This document shows, one piece after another, positions 2,623 to 8,747 of a stretch of DNA of 20,672 nucleotides. The translations under genes and the position numbers were made by a program. The notes beneath the pieces are model-generated. The model made no database searches. It was not told the DNA's origin and saw only the letters and a list, made by a program, of their open reading frames with translations. The first letter of the stretch is position 1. Each line of letters starts with the position of its first letter. The DNA comes from a virus, in IMG/VR virus record IMGVR_UViG_3300031841_003465, positions 1 through 20,672 of that record. One strand, written 5' to 3'.

Positions 2623-4706
2623 GCACCCCTTCCGCTGGGGTATACTCCGCGCAGCAGAAATACCAGAGTCGGAAGATTGAGGAAGCCTCAACCGTCTCTG
2701 GTATTCCAAAGCCTAAAGACCCGACTAGGCGAGCCGCGTGTGAGAGAGACCTGTCTCTGTTTCTGCGAACGTACTTCCCCCATTCAACGGGGTTGAAGCC
2801 GTTCAGCAGTGACCACGAGATGGCCATCCTCAGAATGCAATATGCAATCATTGAGGGTGGTGGTACGGTTCTTACGTGTTTCCCCCGGGGGTTTGGTAAG
2901 ACAACGATCTCTGAGAACACCGCGATTTGGGCATCCCTGTATGGGCATAAGAAGTTTATCCCGATTATCGGGGCGGACAAAGGTGCCGCTACAGACACGA
3001 TTGCCAGTCTGAAGTTTGAACTCACAGAGAATGACCTGATTGCTGAGGACTTCCCTGAAGTCGTTGTGCCCTTCAAGCATCTCGACAATAAGTCCCAGCG
3101 GTGTGCAACCCAGAAGCTCGGCGGCGAGCTCACTTACGTTAAGTGGTCCGCCGAGGAGCTAGGGTTTGCGTGGGTCAAGGGTGATGATGGCCAGTACCTG
3201 AATAACAGCGGGGCGATGTTCCGCTGTTTGGGTATCACCGGTCGTATCCGTGGTATGAGTGTGAAGACGCCGGACGGAGAGAAGAAGCGTCCGGACTTCT
3301 TCATTCTCGACGACCCTCAGACTGACGAATCGGCAATGAGTCCGACGCAGTGTGCAAAGCGGATGTCAATCTATCAGAAGTCAGTGCTCCGCCTCGGTGG
3401 ACACAACAAGCTTCTGAGTGGTGTGATCAACGCGACCGTGATTGAGCCGGATGATATGGTTGACCAACTTCTGAGTCAGGAGAAGCACCCCGAGGTTGAG
3501 GGTGTGCGGATCCCGATGCTGAAGACGATGTCTGACAACCATGAAGATCTGTGGATGGACAGTTATGCTGAGTTGAGACGAACGTACAATCCAGAGGATC
3601 CTGGGGACCGCCGGAGGGCAATCAAAGACGCTAACGAGTTCTATGACCGAAACCGGGAGGAGATGGACAAGGGTGCTGAGGCGACGTGGGAGCATTGCTA
3701 CGCGGAACTCGACGGCGAGGTATCTGCCATTCAGCATGCATACAACATCCTGATCGATGATGGTCCATACGTATTCGCTTCCGAGTGTCAGAATGAGCCT
3801 GTGTCTCGGAATCCAATGGGTATGGATTTCATGACGCCGGAGGAGATCTGCGAGCATCGGGTAGGACGGCACAAGAAGCTACCGAACAAAGTGGATGTGC
3901 TGGCGTTCCACATCGACGTTCAGAAGCGTGCGCTGTACTACTGCATCAGCGGGGTCTCAGAGGACTTCTCCATGTACCCGATTGAGTATGGGATGTACCC
4001 GGAGCAGAAGGGTGGCAAACTCGGGTATGCGAATGTCCGGTCTACCCTGCAACGCCGGTACAAGGGAATGAGCGACGAGATGGTCATCGAACGTGGTGTC
4101 GGTGATTTGGTCAAGATGCTGAAGACGAAGCGATTCGCGAGAGAGGACGGGGTTGTATTGACGGCAGATGTGGGTCTGGTCGACGGGGGTTACCAGTCGG
4201 ACGCGGTCCACAATGGCGTGCTTCAATCCGGTCAGACTGGCGTCTACGTCGCCTACGGTCGTGGTGTGAAGGCTGCGGATACTCCAATGATGCTGCTGAA
4301 GCGGGCGTCGGGGGAGAAGCGTAGCAAGGATATGTTTATTCCGTGGAGGATGATGGCCGATGCGAACCGAAGAGGAACCCGGTATGTGCTGTTCTGTTCT
4401 AACTCAGTTAAGACGTTCGTGCATCGTCGAATCCGAACGGATATCGGCGAGAAGGGGTCCTTCCTCCTGCCAGCAGGCATCCATAAGGAATTTGCCGCAC
4501 ACATCAGCGGAAGTGAATCACCCACGGAAACTGAAGGACCATACGGAAAACTGATTGAGTGGGCACCCGTTCCGGGCCGCCCCGACAACCACCTATTTGA
4601 CTGTCTGGTGGGATCCGCCGTTGCGGCGTCCATCACCGGTCGTGTTCGGTTCGGGGAGCCGATTGAAAAACCCGTCAAGAACCAGAAGAAGGTCTCGTAC
4701 TTATGA
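2619..4706 (+). CDS. terL: Terminase large subunit (DNA-packaging ATPase/nuclease)
   Basis: This is the motor that pumps phage DNA into the prohead and cuts it. The 695-residue protein has an N-terminal ATPase with a Walker A-type loop FPRGFGKTT (residues 88-96) and Walker B FFILDD (227-232) whose second acidic residue fits the catalytic carboxylate. The C-terminal nuclease domain shows acidic positions expected for an RNase H-like fold: HIDVQ (D433), ADVGLVDGGY (D517/D522) and PDNHLFDCLVG (D661). The length is near that of lambda gpA-type terminases. It starts at a GTG overlapping the preceding stop. No ATG occurs before residue 68, and starting there would leave only 20 residues ahead of the Walker A loop. 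It overlaps the next gene by four bases (ATGA). The gpW-portal-protease order downstream also points to the lambda-type family. Confidence 0.93.
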   Translation: MSTPSAGVYSAQQKYQSRKIEEASTVSGIPKPKDPTRRAACERDLSLFLRTYFPHSTGLKPFSSDHEMAILRMQYAIIEGGGTVLTCFPRGFGKTTISENTAIWASLYGHKKFIPIIGADKGAATDTIASLKFELTENDLIAEDFPEVVVPFKHLDNKSQRCATQKLGGELTYVKWSAEELGFAWVKGDDGQYLNNSGAMFRCLGITGRIRGMSVKTPDGEKKRPDFFILDDPQTDESAMSPTQCAKRMSIYQKSVLRLGGHNKLLSGVINATVIEPDDMVDQLLSQEKHPEVEGVRIPMLKTMSDNHEDLWMDSYAELRRTYNPEDPGDRRRAIKDANEFYDRNREEMDKGAEATWEHCYAELDGEVSAIQHAYNILIDDGPYVFASECQNEPVSRNPMGMDFMTPEEICEHRVGRHKKLPNKVDVLAFHIDVQKRALYYCISGVSEDFSMYPIEYGMYPEQKGGKLGYANVRSTLQRRYKGMSDEMVIERGVGDLVKMLKTKRFAREDGVVLTADVGLVDGGYQSDAVHNGVLQSGQTGVYVAYGRGVKAADTPMMLLKRASGEKRSKDMFIPWRMMADANRRGTRYVLFCSNSVKTFVHRRIRTDIGEKGSFLLPAGIHKEFAAHISGSESPTETEGPYGKLIEWAPVPGRPDNHLFDCLVGSAVAASITGRVRFGEPIEKPVKNQKKVSYL

Positions 4707-5008
4707 GCAAGAAGAAAGCCACCAAGAAGAAAGCCACCAAGAAGAAAGCCACCAAGAAGAAAGCTGTAAAAGAGGCAGTACCCTGCGTCAGCACGGTCCC
4801 GATCCACTGCCCCAGGTGCGGATGTTCAGACAGATCCCGCAAAACAGGCACGATTCGGAGGACTCTGAGCGGGTCGACATCTGACGGATTTGACTACACG
4901 GAGGTGGCGTGGAGCTACGTAACTTGCTTGGGGTGCGAGAAGAATTACAGAATTATCGAGTATTTGGCCCCTACATCCCGCGACTGCGGGTTGAAGTCTG
5001 ACCAATAG
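4703..5008 (+). CDS. Zinc-ribbon protein with lysine-repeat N-terminus
   Basis: 101 residues. The N-terminus is a perfect pentapeptide repeat (KKKAT three times, then KKKAV) encoded by a 15-bp tandem repeat. The rest is a compact domain with two CxxC knuckles, CPRC (about residues 34-37) and CLGC (about 74-77), about 36 residues apart, as in a zinc ribbon. Small zinc-ribbon proteins between terminase and portal are common in tailed phages, and their role is not established. The polylysine arm suggests binding to DNA or another polyanion, which is inference. The ATG overlaps the terminase stop (ATGA). Confidence 0.7.
   Translation: MSKKKATKKKATKKKATKKKAVKEAVPCVSTVPIHCPRCGCSDRSRKTGTIRRTLSGSTSDGFDYTEVAWSYVTCLGCEKNYRIIEYLAPTSRDCGLKSDQ
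4709..4768 (+). repeat. 15-bp tandem repeat encoding KKKAT
   Basis: Three exact copies of AAGAAGAAAGCCACC (4709-4753) and a fourth that diverges after ten or so bases. It is in frame with the zinc-ribbon gene, so loss or gain of a unit changes only the length of the lysine arm. Confidence 0.9.
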
Positions 5009-5033: not shown

Positions 5034-5258
5034 ATGAGTGACTCAATTTCACAGCTGGAAGCTGATCTATCTGCCCTGAATTCTGCGATTCGATCCGGGT
5101 TGCTGATGGTGCAGGTAGGCGGACAGCTGACTCAGTATCAATCCCTGAAGCAGATGCGTTCGGTCGCTTCCGACCTCGAGCGACAGATTGCCGATTGCAA
5201 GGGCATAGCGAGTCAGAAGCCTCGCGTGTCTTCCTTCAACATCAGTAGGGGCGTGTGA
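5034..5258 (+). CDS. gpW-like head-tail joining protein
   Basis: 74 residues, close to lambda gpW (68). It has the expected layout: a helix with leucine/alanine spacing (SQLEADLSALNSAIRSG), a short hairpin (VQVGGQLTQYQS), a second helix (LKQMRSVASDLERQIADCKG) and a basic tail. gpW-type proteins sit in the portal channel and are needed to stabilise packaged DNA and attach the tail. The gene lies between terminase and portal, as W lies between A and B in lambda. A GGAG ribosome-binding site lies at 5019-5022. Its stop overlaps the portal ATG (TGATG). Confidence 0.75.
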   Translation: MSDSISQLEADLSALNSAIRSGLLMVQVGGQLTQYQSLKQMRSVASDLERQIADCKGIASQKPRVSSFNISRGV

Positions 5259-6691
5259 TGGCTAAGAAGCGAGCCAAAAAGAAGTCCGCCTCAAAGAAAG
5301 CGTTCACAAGCGGTTATGACGCCGCGAACGGATCAAACAAGCGACGGGCATCCTCCTCAATCCTGAAGCGGGAAGAGGATGTTCTGAAGGAAAGAGCTCG
5401 CCGGAGCCTGATCGGCACCGGACAGTACCTCTATCGCAATTTCAGCGTTGTATCGTGGGCTGTGAAGAAGCACCTCGATTACAACACGATGTTCGATTTT
5501 CAGGCCCAGACGGACTATCCTGAACTGAACGAACAACTGGAATCGCTGATGAGCGAATGGTCTCTGCCATTCAACTGCGATGCATCGGCCCGTTTCACCT
5601 TCCAGCAGCTTCTCAGAGCCTCTGAGATGCGACGAGTCCTAGACGGCGACATCTTCTGGATCAAACGCCGAGACGGGCGTCTGGGGGCCATTGAGGGCGA
5701 TCTGATGCGAACTCCGGGAGAGGTCTCGGATGGGGAGCGATGGTTCAACGGAGCCCGCGTGAATGTGGACGGTCGTCCAATCGCGTGGGGACTCCACCGG
5801 CGTGAGGATTACGGGAACGTAGAGTTCCTGCGGAAGATCCCTGCACAGAACGTGATTCAGTTGTGCCAGTTCGACCGGTTCGACCAGATCCGTGGTGTCT
5901 CACCGATGGCGGGTGCGTTCAATGCGTTCCAGGACTGCTACGAAGGTGTTGACTACGCTCTGGCCAAAATGAAGGTCGAGCAGTTGTTCGCGATGGTCAT
6001 CTACAGTTCCAATAGCAGCGGGACTGGTGACCACCTGCGAAATGGCGACGGATCCTACGATGTCGACTTCGGGAAGGGTCCGGTTAAACTGGAGATGGAT
6101 GCCGACGACGATGCCAAGTTCCTGCACGCTGACGGGCCAGGTTATGCAACCCAAGAGTTCGTAAACTTGGTTATCGGGATGGCCATTAAGAGTCTGGGAC
6201 TTCCGTTCAGCTTCTTCGATGAGGCACACACCAACTTCTTTGGTAGCCGTGCAGCGTTCCTGCACTATGACCGAAGCTGTAAGGCAAACCGTTCGGTTCT
6301 GCTCGAGGCTCTTCGCCGTGTAACGGTTTGGAAGATGCGACAGTGGATCTTGGAGGGCCGACTGACCCTCCCATCCGGAATGACTGTTCTGGATGTTGCA
6401 TATGAGTGGGTACACGCTGGTATGCCTTGGTGGGATCCATCGAAGGAAATTGATGGCGACATGAAGGCTATCTCTGCCGGACTCGACAACCCATACCGGG
6501 TATGTCAGCGAGTCGGCACAGACTTCGAAGCCAACATCAAGAAGATTGCACAAGCCCGCGAGTTCGCTGAATCTCATAACGTTCCCCTCACTTTTGGTGA
6601 GGTTGCTGAACCGGTTGAATACGAAGAGGACGAGCCGGTTGAGGAAGAAGGGAACGAGGAAGAAGCTATAGGAAACGAGGATGAAGAATGA
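5258..6691 (+). CDS. Portal protein, lambda gpB family
   Basis: This protein forms the dodecameric ring at the capsid vertex through which DNA enters and leaves. It has 477 residues from the ATG at 5258, chosen over the GTG three bases earlier because it forms a TGATG junction with gpW. Family features include the early RNFSVVSWAVKKHLDYN segment (also seen as YxxNxWaxxav in relatives), DGDIFWIKRR, the HREDYGN and VIQLCQFDRFDQIRGVSPMA segment, and the FFGSRAAFLHYDRS stretch. RxDQxRGVSPMAGA is characteristic of lambda-type portals. The N-terminus is lysine-rich (AKKRAKKKSASKK) and the C-terminal 35 residues are almost all acidic. It overlaps the protease gene by four bases (ATGA). Confidence 0.9.
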   Translation: MAKKRAKKKSASKKAFTSGYDAANGSNKRRASSSILKREEDVLKERARRSLIGTGQYLYRNFSVVSWAVKKHLDYNTMFDFQAQTDYPELNEQLESLMSEWSLPFNCDASARFTFQQLLRASEMRRVLDGDIFWIKRRDGRLGAIEGDLMRTPGEVSDGERWFNGARVNVDGRPIAWGLHRREDYGNVEFLRKIPAQNVIQLCQFDRFDQIRGVSPMAGAFNAFQDCYEGVDYALAKMKVEQLFAMVIYSSNSSGTGDHLRNGDGSYDVDFGKGPVKLEMDADDDAKFLHADGPGYATQEFVNLVIGMAIKSLGLPFSFFDEAHTNFFGSRAAFLHYDRSCKANRSVLLEALRRVTVWKMRQWILEGRLTLPSGMTVLDVAYEWVHAGMPWWDPSKEIDGDMKAISAGLDNPYRVCQRVGTDFEANIKKIAQAREFAESHNVPLTFGEVAEPVEYEEDEPVEEEGNEEEAIGNEDEE

Positions 6692-7794
6692 GTGTTGACG
6701 CTCCCCCGAAAAGGTTCCGTGCTACGATCTCCCGCAACCCTGCCGGCCCCAAGGTCGAACGTGAGGGCGGGATGTTCGATGCCGGTCTGATCCGAGATGT
6801 ATCTCTGATCACTGTTGGTGAGGCTCTCGGCCACGAGATGTGGTGTGATGAGGATTTCATTGAGTCTGTGGCCTTGGAGGTCAACCGATCTCCTCGAGGC
6901 ATCAAGGCACGGTTCACACACCCGGGCCTGAGCAGCGACGGAGTAGGCACGAAGCTTGGCAAGTTCGACAACGCACGTGTTGTTGGGAACCAGGTCATTG
7001 CTGACATGCACTTCCAGAGGGCTGCATCTAAGACCCCTGACGGCGGCGATCTCGCTGACTACGTCATGACTCTTGCAGAAGAAACACCAGAGGACTTCGG
7101 TCTCTCTATCGTCTTTGATCACGACTTCGAAGCTTCAGAAGACTTCGCCAGTGAATGGGAGGACGGCAAGTCCCCAGACAAAGACAATGAATACAACTAC
7201 ATGCACGCACGGTTGTGGAAGCTGTACGCTGCAGATGTTGTTGACTCGCCAGCGGCCAACCCGAGTGGGTTGTTCAAGGCGGGACAGGAAGCTGCCATCG
7301 AAGCTGATGGTTTGCTGTCGTATGCGTTGGGCATTTCGGACGTGAAGCCCTCGCAGTCGCTGTTCAACGTGGATAGTGATAGAGCGAAGCAGTTCTTCGC
7401 GAGGTTTTTATCACGTCATGGTCTATCCTTAGTTAATGAGGAGGTTGCTGAAATGAGTGAAGAAATCACTCCAGTTGAAGCTCCCGAGGTACAGGCTCCA
7501 GAAGGTCTGACGCGGGAAGATTTCAACGCCGAACTGGGTCGATACGTTGAGGCGTTCGGCTCTGAGCGTGGAACTGATTGGTTCCTTGGTGGTGTTGAGT
7601 TTGCTGCTGCACAGGCTCTGTGCATCGAAGCTTTGAACGCCGAACTCTCTGAAGCTCGCGATCAGATCGCTGAACTGAACGAGAAAATTGAGTCTATCGC
7701 ACTGGGCGAAGAAGACAGCGGAGTTGCCACTCCGGAAGTTCTCGAAGCTGAATCCGAAGTACGTGGATTCGCTGGCAAAATCAACATTAAGTAA
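6688..7794 (+). CDS. Prohead protease fused to scaffold domain
   Basis: 368 residues. Residues 1-200 resemble phage prohead serine proteases, which cut scaffold and capsid precursors during maturation. The likely catalytic positions are His78 (RFTHPG), Ser140 (EDFGLS) and the ADVVDSPAANP segment (183-192), which matches the conserved region near the end of such protease domains. Residues 256-368 are acidic and helical with a coiled coil (about 305-340), as expected of a scaffold. An internal start at codon 256 would make the scaffold alone, the arrangement of lambda C/Nu3. The His/Ser layout seems closer to the HK97-type protease than to the lambda SppA-like one, but I cannot settle this without a structural comparison. 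It precedes the capsid gene. Confidence 0.85.
   Translation: MSVDAPPKRFRATISRNPAGPKVEREGGMFDAGLIRDVSLITVGEALGHEMWCDEDFIESVALEVNRSPRGIKARFTHPGLSSDGVGTKLGKFDNARVVGNQVIADMHFQRAASKTPDGGDLADYVMTLAEETPEDFGLSIVFDHDFEASEDFASEWEDGKSPDKDNEYNYMHARLWKLYAADVVDSPAANPSGLFKAGQEAAIEADGLLSYALGISDVKPSQSLFNVDSDRAKQFFARFLSRHGLSLVNEEVAEMSEEITPVEAPEVQAPEGLTREDFNAELGRYVEAFGSERGTDWFLGGVEFAAAQALCIEALNAELSEARDQIAELNEKIESIALGEEDSGVATPEVLEAESEVRGFAGKINIK
7438..7455 (+). promoter_or_regulatory. Internal ribosome-binding site for scaffold
   Basis: GAGGAGG (7438-7444), eight-base spacer, ATG (7453-7455). This is the strongest Shine-Dalgarno I saw in the head block and it lies well inside a reading frame, at the boundary of the protease and scaffold domains. 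Confidence 0.75.
7453..7794 (+). CDS. Internally started scaffold protein (nested in protease gene, same frame)
   Basis: The ATG at 7453 is in frame with the protease start (255 codons downstream) and is preceded by GAGGAGG at 7438-7444 with 8 bases between, a near-ideal Shine-Dalgarno. The product would be 113 residues, beginning MSEEITPVEAPEVQAPEG, acidic, with a heptad-like helix (IEALNAELSEARDQIAELNE). Lambda makes its scaffold Nu3 from the same kind of in-frame internal start within gene C. Translation from this site is inferred from the sequence and that parallel. Confidence 0.7.
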   Translation: MSEEITPVEAPEVQAPEGLTREDFNAELGRYVEAFGSERGTDWFLGGVEFAAAQALCIEALNAELSEARDQIAELNEKIESIALGEEDSGVATPEVLEAESEVRGFAGKINIK

Positions 7795-7808
7795 AGGGGT
7801 TTTGAACA

Positions 7809-8747
7809 ATGGCTAATGATCTTCTTGCAGTAGCTGATTTCCTGGCTGATGCACTGGACGTAGACAAGACGGCAACGACAGAAGTACTGAACTCTGCACC
7901 GCTGGTATCTCGTCTGCCCATCAGTGACACTGCCGATGGAAGTAGCACTCACAAGTACACGAAGTACACTCAGGCACCAGTAGTTGGCTTCCGTTCAGAA
8001 AACGCGGGACGAGACTACTCACATTCTGTCGACACGATTGTAAGTGTCAACTGCTCCATCCTCGACTGGTCATGGCGTGTAGACCACGCTATCGCTCAGT
8101 CATGGCGACAGGGTCCACAGGACCTGATCGCTCGTGAAGGTCTGCGTCACCTTGGTGCTGCACTCTACAAGCTGGAACAGCAGATCATCTACGGTACAGA
8201 TGCTACCCTTGGTGACTCTTCTGGTTTCGCTGGATTCCTGCAGTCTACAGATCTGGATGCTGTTGCTGATGCAATGGTCATCAATGCTGGTGGAACAACC
8301 GCTAGTTCTCAGAACTCTGTCTACGCTGTTAAGGCTGGCTTCAACGACGTTCGTCTGGTTTCTCCTGCTGCCAACGGTCTGGTAGTCGGTGACACGATTG
8401 TGACAGAGGCAAACGACGGGAACTACCCCGTGTTTTACACTCCGGGCAACATGCTTGCTGGTCTGCAGTTGGGTGGTAAGTACAGCATCGGTCGTATCTG
8501 CAACCTGAACGCCAGCGACTCTGGTGCTCAGCTTGATGACGACAAGATCTCTGACCTCCTGAGTGCATTCCCAAGTGGAATGGCTCCAGACTTCCTGGTC
8601 ATGAACCGAGATCGCCTGAAGGAATTGCAGCAGTCACGTACTGCCACCAATCCTACTGGTGCTCCCAGCCCATTCCCGAGCTCTGCTTTTGGTGTACCTA
8701 TCATCGTTACAGAAGCTCTGGTTAACACTGAAGCTGTTGAATCGTAA
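7809..8747 (+). CDS. Major capsid protein
   Basis: 312 residues, directly after the protease/scaffold gene, with its own ribosome-binding site (AGGGG at 7795-7799). The N-terminal region (DFLADALDVDKTATTEVLNSAPLVSRLP) and the middle (LIAREGLRHLGAALYKLEQQIIYG, then SVYAVKAGFNDVRLVSPAAN, then FLVMNRDRLKELQQSR, FGVPIIVTEAL) fit HK97-fold capsid subunits. Hundreds of copies would form the icosahedral shell. Codon choice looks more uniform here than in neighbouring genes, with CTG or CTT for almost every leucine, consistent with high expression. No separate decoration-protein gene lies beside it. Confidence 0.87.
   Translation: MANDLLAVADFLADALDVDKTATTEVLNSAPLVSRLPISDTADGSSTHKYTKYTQAPVVGFRSENAGRDYSHSVDTIVSVNCSILDWSWRVDHAIAQSWRQGPQDLIAREGLRHLGAALYKLEQQIIYGTDATLGDSSGFAGFLQSTDLDAVADAMVINAGGTTASSQNSVYAVKAGFNDVRLVSPAANGLVVGDTIVTEANDGNYPVFYTPGNMLAGLQLGGKYSIGRICNLNASDSGAQLDDDKISDLLSAFPSGMAPDFLVMNRDRLKELQQSRTATNPTGAPSPFPSSAFGVPIIVTEALVNTEAVES

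Follow-up and report, generated by a model that had tools for sequence, protein, structure and literature searches.

Phage Mu encodes two proteins in a single reading frame: an in-frame start with its own Shine-Dalgarno sequence (SD) inside the protease gene I opens the scaffold gene Z, which shares the stop codon of I and is followed immediately by the capsid gene (annotation of AF083977). An excerpt of PMC4378225 describes the same internal scaffold start, with SD and spacer, in Mu-like phages of Pseudomonas. Lambda is organized in a similar manner, with the scaffold gene Nu3 nested in frame within the protease gene C and ending at a common stop (annotation of J02459), and the herpesvirus protease and scaffold genes UL26 and UL26.5 overlap in frame with identical 3' ends (excerpt of PMC4498786). 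In HK97, the scaffold is carried on the capsid protein as the delta domain of gp5 (excerpt of PMC10275583), while in P2 it is part of the protease protein gpO (excerpt of PMC6893505), for which no nested scaffold gene is annotated in AF063097.

The locus analyzed here lies in a 20,672-base linear viral record (IMGVR_UViG_3300031841_003465), which in its full length we refer to as the window. Its layout is of the Mu I/Z and lambda C/Nu3 kind: one open reading frame (ORF), in which a protease is followed by a helical C-terminal domain, precedes the capsid gene and contains a conserved internal in-frame start with an SD. This ORF, the protease-scaffold fusion gene (6688 to 7794; all features given here are on the plus strand), begins with ATG, encodes 368 amino acids (aa), and has relatives in viral and bacterial contigs. 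On its 5' side is a portal protein gene (5255 to 6691; PF05136, phrog_21), and on its 3' side is the gene for the major capsid protein (7809 to 8747; PF20911 and phrog_212), a 312-aa protein that begins MANDLLAVADF and has no N-terminal scaffold (delta) extension. As with HK97 gp4, the protease gene thus stands beside the capsid gene, but the scaffold is on the protease here and on the capsid protein in HK97. Residues 1 to 244 (6688 to 7419) form the protease domain. Beyond them are the SD, GAGGAGG (7438 to 7444; duplex energy of -13.0 kcal/mol with the anti-SD used), a spacer of 8 nucleotides (nt), and an in-frame ATG at residue 256, which would open a nested scaffold ORF of 113 aa (7453 to 7794) ending at the stop codon of the fusion. 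A linker directly after this start (residues 257 to 272; 7456 to 7503) has the lowest confidence in our structural model (pLDDT < 50), and the scaffold domain contains a long helix (residues 305 to 339; 7600 to 7704) assigned by DSSP on the model. An earlier reading made from the letters of the window (here, the sequence-only reading) had proposed this SD, its 8-nt spacing, the in-frame ATG, and products of 113 and 368 residues, all of which were borne out by our reading of the ORF. Elsewhere in the window, a 595-aa ORF near the contig start (61 to 1848) consists of repeats that are nearly identical, TQTVTTDSASRTASQADVSALATA being one example, and a Lys-rich repeat, KKKATKKKATKKKATKKKAVKE (4703 to 4770), opens a 101-aa ORF.

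Within the window, GAGGAGG followed after 4 to 9 nt by ATG occurs twice, compared to 0.42 occurrences expected, with at least two also arising in 6 of 100 shuffles; the looser GGAGG form occurs at chance level. Because the motif is only mildly unusual in a single window, the window alone proves little, and it is conservation that decides. The internal SD (-13.0) is stronger than those of the fusion gene's own start (-5.9) and the capsid start (-7.3), and the RNA fold around the internal start is ordinary (local fold, z of -0.15). A hairpin upstream of the SD (7384 to 7400), in which one relative (L005) shows a paired double change, was rejected as a conserved element; it is not kept in 66 clusters (mean of 3.4 of 6 pairs).

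Relatives from viral contigs span 99% to about 35% identity and came from several scans, one of which kept 80 of 95 relatives and a wider one 80 of 220. Together with the window, the 80 relatives from the former make up 81 ORFs in 42 clusters at 90%. Addition of 34 loci from the wider scan and of relative L014 brought the total to 116 ORFs in 67 clusters, among which L163 stops short of the junction between the two domains; another relative (L111) has a frame break in the C-terminal part. Set C consists of bacterial genomes, a collection independent of the viral sets A and B. A first scan of bacterial genome contigs found no relatives, and a second found 24 loci, 15 of them in Planctomycetota, 4 in Verrucomicrobia and kin, and the remainder in Lentisphaerae, Armatimonadota, Nitrospira, Chitinophaga, and Alphaproteobacteria. 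Based on the taxa of these 24 loci, the hosts of the family are likely planctomycetes and related bacteria; one relative (L176) is in the cultured planctomycete Rhodopirellula maiorica SM1. Among INPHARED phages, there was no match to the fusion gene, to its scaffold part, or to L083, a relative described below.

The sequence-only reading had named loss of the SD in close relatives as one outcome that would refute it; the SD is retained in L001 to L004. L001 is identical to the window at the SD and ATG, while L002 to L004 share a 3-nt deletion between them that keeps both and leaves a 5-nt spacer. In relatives of 60%, 55%, and 51% identity, the linker has diverged, yet the equivalent place still carries an SD followed by GTG or ATG. 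We scored each in-frame ATG, GTG, and TTG by computing the duplex energy between the anti-SD and the bases upstream, using a junction window of 17 codons and counting -5.5 kcal/mol or better as a match. A junction start with an SD was present in 34 of 41 cases in set A, 17 of 23 in set B, and 10 of 21 in set C, counts that are not independent, since the clusters are related by descent. In-frame windows of equal size, taken from other parts of these ORFs, matched in 9.4%, 7.8%, and 14.6% of cases, and out-of-frame junction windows in 4/82, 2/46, and 1/42, for sets A, B, and C, respectively. A scan along the whole alignment of viral clusters gave only two peaks, one at the junction (53/65) and one at the gene's own start (52/65), with the next-best position at 15/66. 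The Mu I/Z family, whose nested Z start is annotated, served as a positive control and scored 41/41, compared to 11% in control windows. The junction conservation in viral clusters supports the nested in-frame scaffold start that the sequence-only reading had put forward as a candidate. Four relatives (L081, L072, L117, and L154) have the scaffold but a junction start that misses a -4 threshold, and four others (L084, L085, L088, and L151) match only via a GTG upstream of the aligned site; dropping the latter four leaves 31/41 in set A and 16/23 in set B. Set C is weaker, with 6/21 missing the -4 threshold, partly through poor alignment of distant rows. Median SD energies (n = 56) are -7.15 for the internal start, -6.8 for the gene's own start, and -6.85 for the capsid start, so that the internal SD being stronger than the gene's own is true in the window and not a rule of the family.

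Could the conserved letters at the junction reflect protein sequence only? The C-terminal part might be a targeting or structural tail with no free product, in which case the SD-like letters would reflect Lys, Gly, and Glu codons before a conserved Met or Val. Synonymous recoding gave a mixed result, with a mean of -7.53 observed versus -5.95 recoded (the paired Wilcoxon test, with a P of 1e-4, favors selection on codons, but the per-gene P values combined by Fisher's method, at 0.106, do not), which suggests that the SD is made by residue choice as well as codon choice. The weak per-gene signal, like the mildly unusual motif in one window, would fit a tail. The start codons, however, persist through switches between Met and Val: ATG and GTG have interchanged at least seven times on the protease-part tree, and Val at the aligned start column is encoded by GTG in 11/11 clusters, compared to 32% for the other Val codons in these ORFs. 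Considering also that out-of-frame and other windows score far lower than the junction and that unrelated proteases next to the same capsid protein also carry the C-terminal domain, we judge a mere tail to be very unlikely. The second residue after the aligned start is Ser or Ala in 28/39 cases.

The same codon choice bears on the proposal that the free scaffold arises by self-cleavage of the fusion, with the junction serving as a cleavage linker and the internal start being incidental. The linker is predicted to be disordered, the P2 scaffold likewise forms part of the protease protein, and some scaffold-bearing relatives (L081, L117, L154, and the group of L084) have no convincing junction start, all of which would fit cleavage. 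A cleavage site, however, requires neither GTG in preference to other Val codons nor an upstream SD. The two routes may coexist, and we consider self-cleavage with an incidental start unlikely. A separate, shorter transcript for the short protein has a precedent in herpesvirus UL26.5, which is described as a separate overlapping gene with its own promoter, whereas the window has an internal ribosome-binding site. A simple consensus scan limited to sigma-70-like promoters found none in 6600 to 7900, and the feature that is conserved is a ribosome-binding site; we regard a separate transcript as very unlikely.

The reading we prefer, with a probability of about 0.87, is that one gene would give rise to two proteins with a common C-terminus, the fusion and a free scaffold produced from the internal start. 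Ribosomes starting at 6688 would make the protease-scaffold fusion, and those starting at 7453, guided by the internal SD, would make the scaffold alone. The free scaffold would direct assembly of the 312-residue capsid protein, itself without a built-in scaffold, and the fusion would co-assemble through the common scaffold domain, thereby bringing the protease into the prohead, where it would later destroy the scaffold. The analysis itself establishes how the sequence is arranged, that this arrangement is conserved, and what fold is predicted; initiation at 7453, the scaffold role, and the activity and targets of the protease are inferred.

The sequence-only reading had also judged the protease domain to look more like the HK97-type His/Ser protease and suggested structure prediction of this part. 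A model built from a 42-row alignment (mean pLDDT of 81.5, >90 for the bulk of the protease) has a mixed alpha/beta arrangement to about residue 190, helices to residue 243, the disordered linker, and the helical C-terminal domain. With Foldseek, the only significant PDB matches were to the T4 protease gp21 (5jbl; for 5jbl_B, E of 1.5e-4 and TM by target of 0.62), and some of the predicted viral structures that matched carry the names prohead protease, COG3740, and HK97 family. VIA-align against T4 gp21 gave a Z of 10.2 with an rmsd of 3.9 over 149 aligned residues; the match to herpesvirus proteases was weak (Z of 4 to 5, which would not settle the question alone). The model thus predicts a capsid protease fold of the T4 gp21/herpesvirus type. 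His78 (codon at 6919 to 6921) and Ser140 (codon at 7105 to 7107) are invariant across the 42 rows and, judging from their position, are presumably catalytic.

Profile comparisons placed the protease less clearly. Among the best 25 of 29 Pfam families for the 42 members (the last of these at E of 0.078), neither PF04586 (Peptidase_S78) nor PF10123 (Mu-like I protein) was present. The P2 gpO model PF05929 matched 1 of the 42 members (E of 0.027), and apart from this one match, no protease family was listed for the fusion gene in Pfam or PHROGs. An hhalign comparison with the S78 profile gave a probability of 0.1%, equal to that of the reversed control; the motifs are nonetheless in register. Single-sequence profile comparisons with HK97 gp4, Mu I, P2 gpO, and lambda C were uninformative. 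Lambda C is a Peptidase_S49 protein, and there is no match to PF01343 (Peptidase_S49) in the whole window record. The assignment to an HK97 type stands insofar as the protease is not of the lambda C kind and has a gp21-like predicted fold, but the Pfam model of the HK97 protease is not among the families listed and the S78 comparison is at noise. In two relatives, L217 (1042 to 3150) and L218 (1 to 2226), the ORF that holds the family's protease domain has a second match, to "major head and protease protein" (phrog_4523), placing protease and capsid in one ORF. Four divergent relatives from planctomycete genomes (L219, L220, L228, and L229; ORFs of 411 to 778 aa) have a four-cysteine, zinc-ribbon-like insert between two protease motifs.

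Mu I, despite its similar gene arrangement, is a PF10123 protein and had no profile-comparison match to the window family. We modeled Mu I from a close relative, L260, found in viral contigs (41 rows; mean pLDDT of 69.5, better in the protease part). Foldseek returned no significant PDB match for this model, while VIA-align placed T4 gp21 first (Z of 11.0 over 129 residues), with herpesvirus proteases at a Z of 7.4 and lower. A gp21/herpesvirus-like protease with a nested in-frame scaffold thus most likely already exists in Mu, as far as the model indicates. The sequence-only reading had proposed a combination of an HK97-like protease with a lambda-style nested scaffold; given the gp21-like Mu I model, the annotated Z, and the gene logic of herpesvirus UL26/UL26.5, this combination is real but not new. 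What is new is a protease family for which neither Pfam nor PHROGs listed a protease match and whose members come mostly with planctomycetes, its breadth, and the apparent behavior of its scaffold as a module. In a search of the open-licence literature, where subscription journals are mostly absent, we found no paper that deals with this protease-scaffold family or with the exchange of scaffolds among types of protease.

Wherever a cluster has the C-terminal domain and its contig extends far enough downstream, the adjacent ORF is of capsid size (about 304 to 324 aa). Among the exceptions, the ORF in L089 begins 612 nt away on the downstream side and is only a candidate capsid gene, those of L071 and L077 extend past the contig ends, and no such ORF is visible in L113 or L143. 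Two relatives, L083 (3923 to 6277) and L014 (2941 to 5308), have a protease of the same family that ends at the junction, and the capsid proteins beside them, of 471 and 428 aa, belong to another family, PF05065. The PF05065 match starts at residue 169 in L083 and residue 139 in L014, leaving 168 and 138 residues before it that by eye look helical and charged, in keeping with an HK97 delta domain; PHROG 10 covers the two proteins from residues 4 and 1, respectively. Neither protein was among the matches listed for the profile of the window family's capsid protein. On the protease-part tree, L083 is sister to L103, L105, and L106, among nested-start relatives (SH-aLRT of 90), so its layout looks derived, while L014 sits on a very long branch and its placement is unsure. 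In these two relatives, the only ones with a delta-type layout, the scaffold has apparently moved from the protease to the capsid protein. Akkermansia phage Chantilly, which has a similar capsid protein, was set aside as a relative of the locus; its protease belongs to another PHROG (phrog_328).

In planctomycete genomes, the family profile also matches some ORFs through the scaffold part alone. A scaffold-only profile matched L223 (E of 1e-24), L198 (2.7e-16), L226 (1.6e-12), L225 (6.3e-10), and L227 (1.4e-8). Among reversed decoys, the best E was 4.3e-5, indicating that a coiled-coil bias exists and making L225 and L227 the least secure. The scaffold domain is joined to a phrog_3244 protease in L223 (793 to 1794), L226 (1405 to 2538), and L198 (1598 to 2647), and a scaffold-related C-terminal domain follows a ClpP-type protease (PF00574) in L225 (931 to 1902) and L227 (883 to 1857). 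The same capsid family comes next after the scaffold in all five loci (E of 1.9e-50 to 3.3e-136), which indicates that the scaffold tracks the capsid protein. Junction starts were ATG with -9.5 in L223, ATG with -7.4 in L198 and L230, TTG with -9.5 in L226, TTG with -5.4 in L227, and ATG with only -0.9 in L225. By these scores, three or four of the five swapped loci would combine a different protease with a scaffold that has a separate start. On the five such loci examined, we lean toward the view that the scaffold domain and its start form a module that keeps to the capsid protein while the protease is exchanged among unrelated types (gp21-like, phrog_3244, and ClpP), and that this module is lost when the capsid protein has a delta domain (L083 and L014).

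A scaffold start inside the protease gene, familiar from a handful of model phages, is deeply conserved in a large, unnamed family of uncultured phages, and gene prediction that outputs the long ORF alone would miss the free scaffold across the family. The family also offers a natural comparison between a scaffold on the protease and a scaffold on the capsid protein, and it points to the scaffold-capsid pair as the co-evolving unit, with the protease replaceable.
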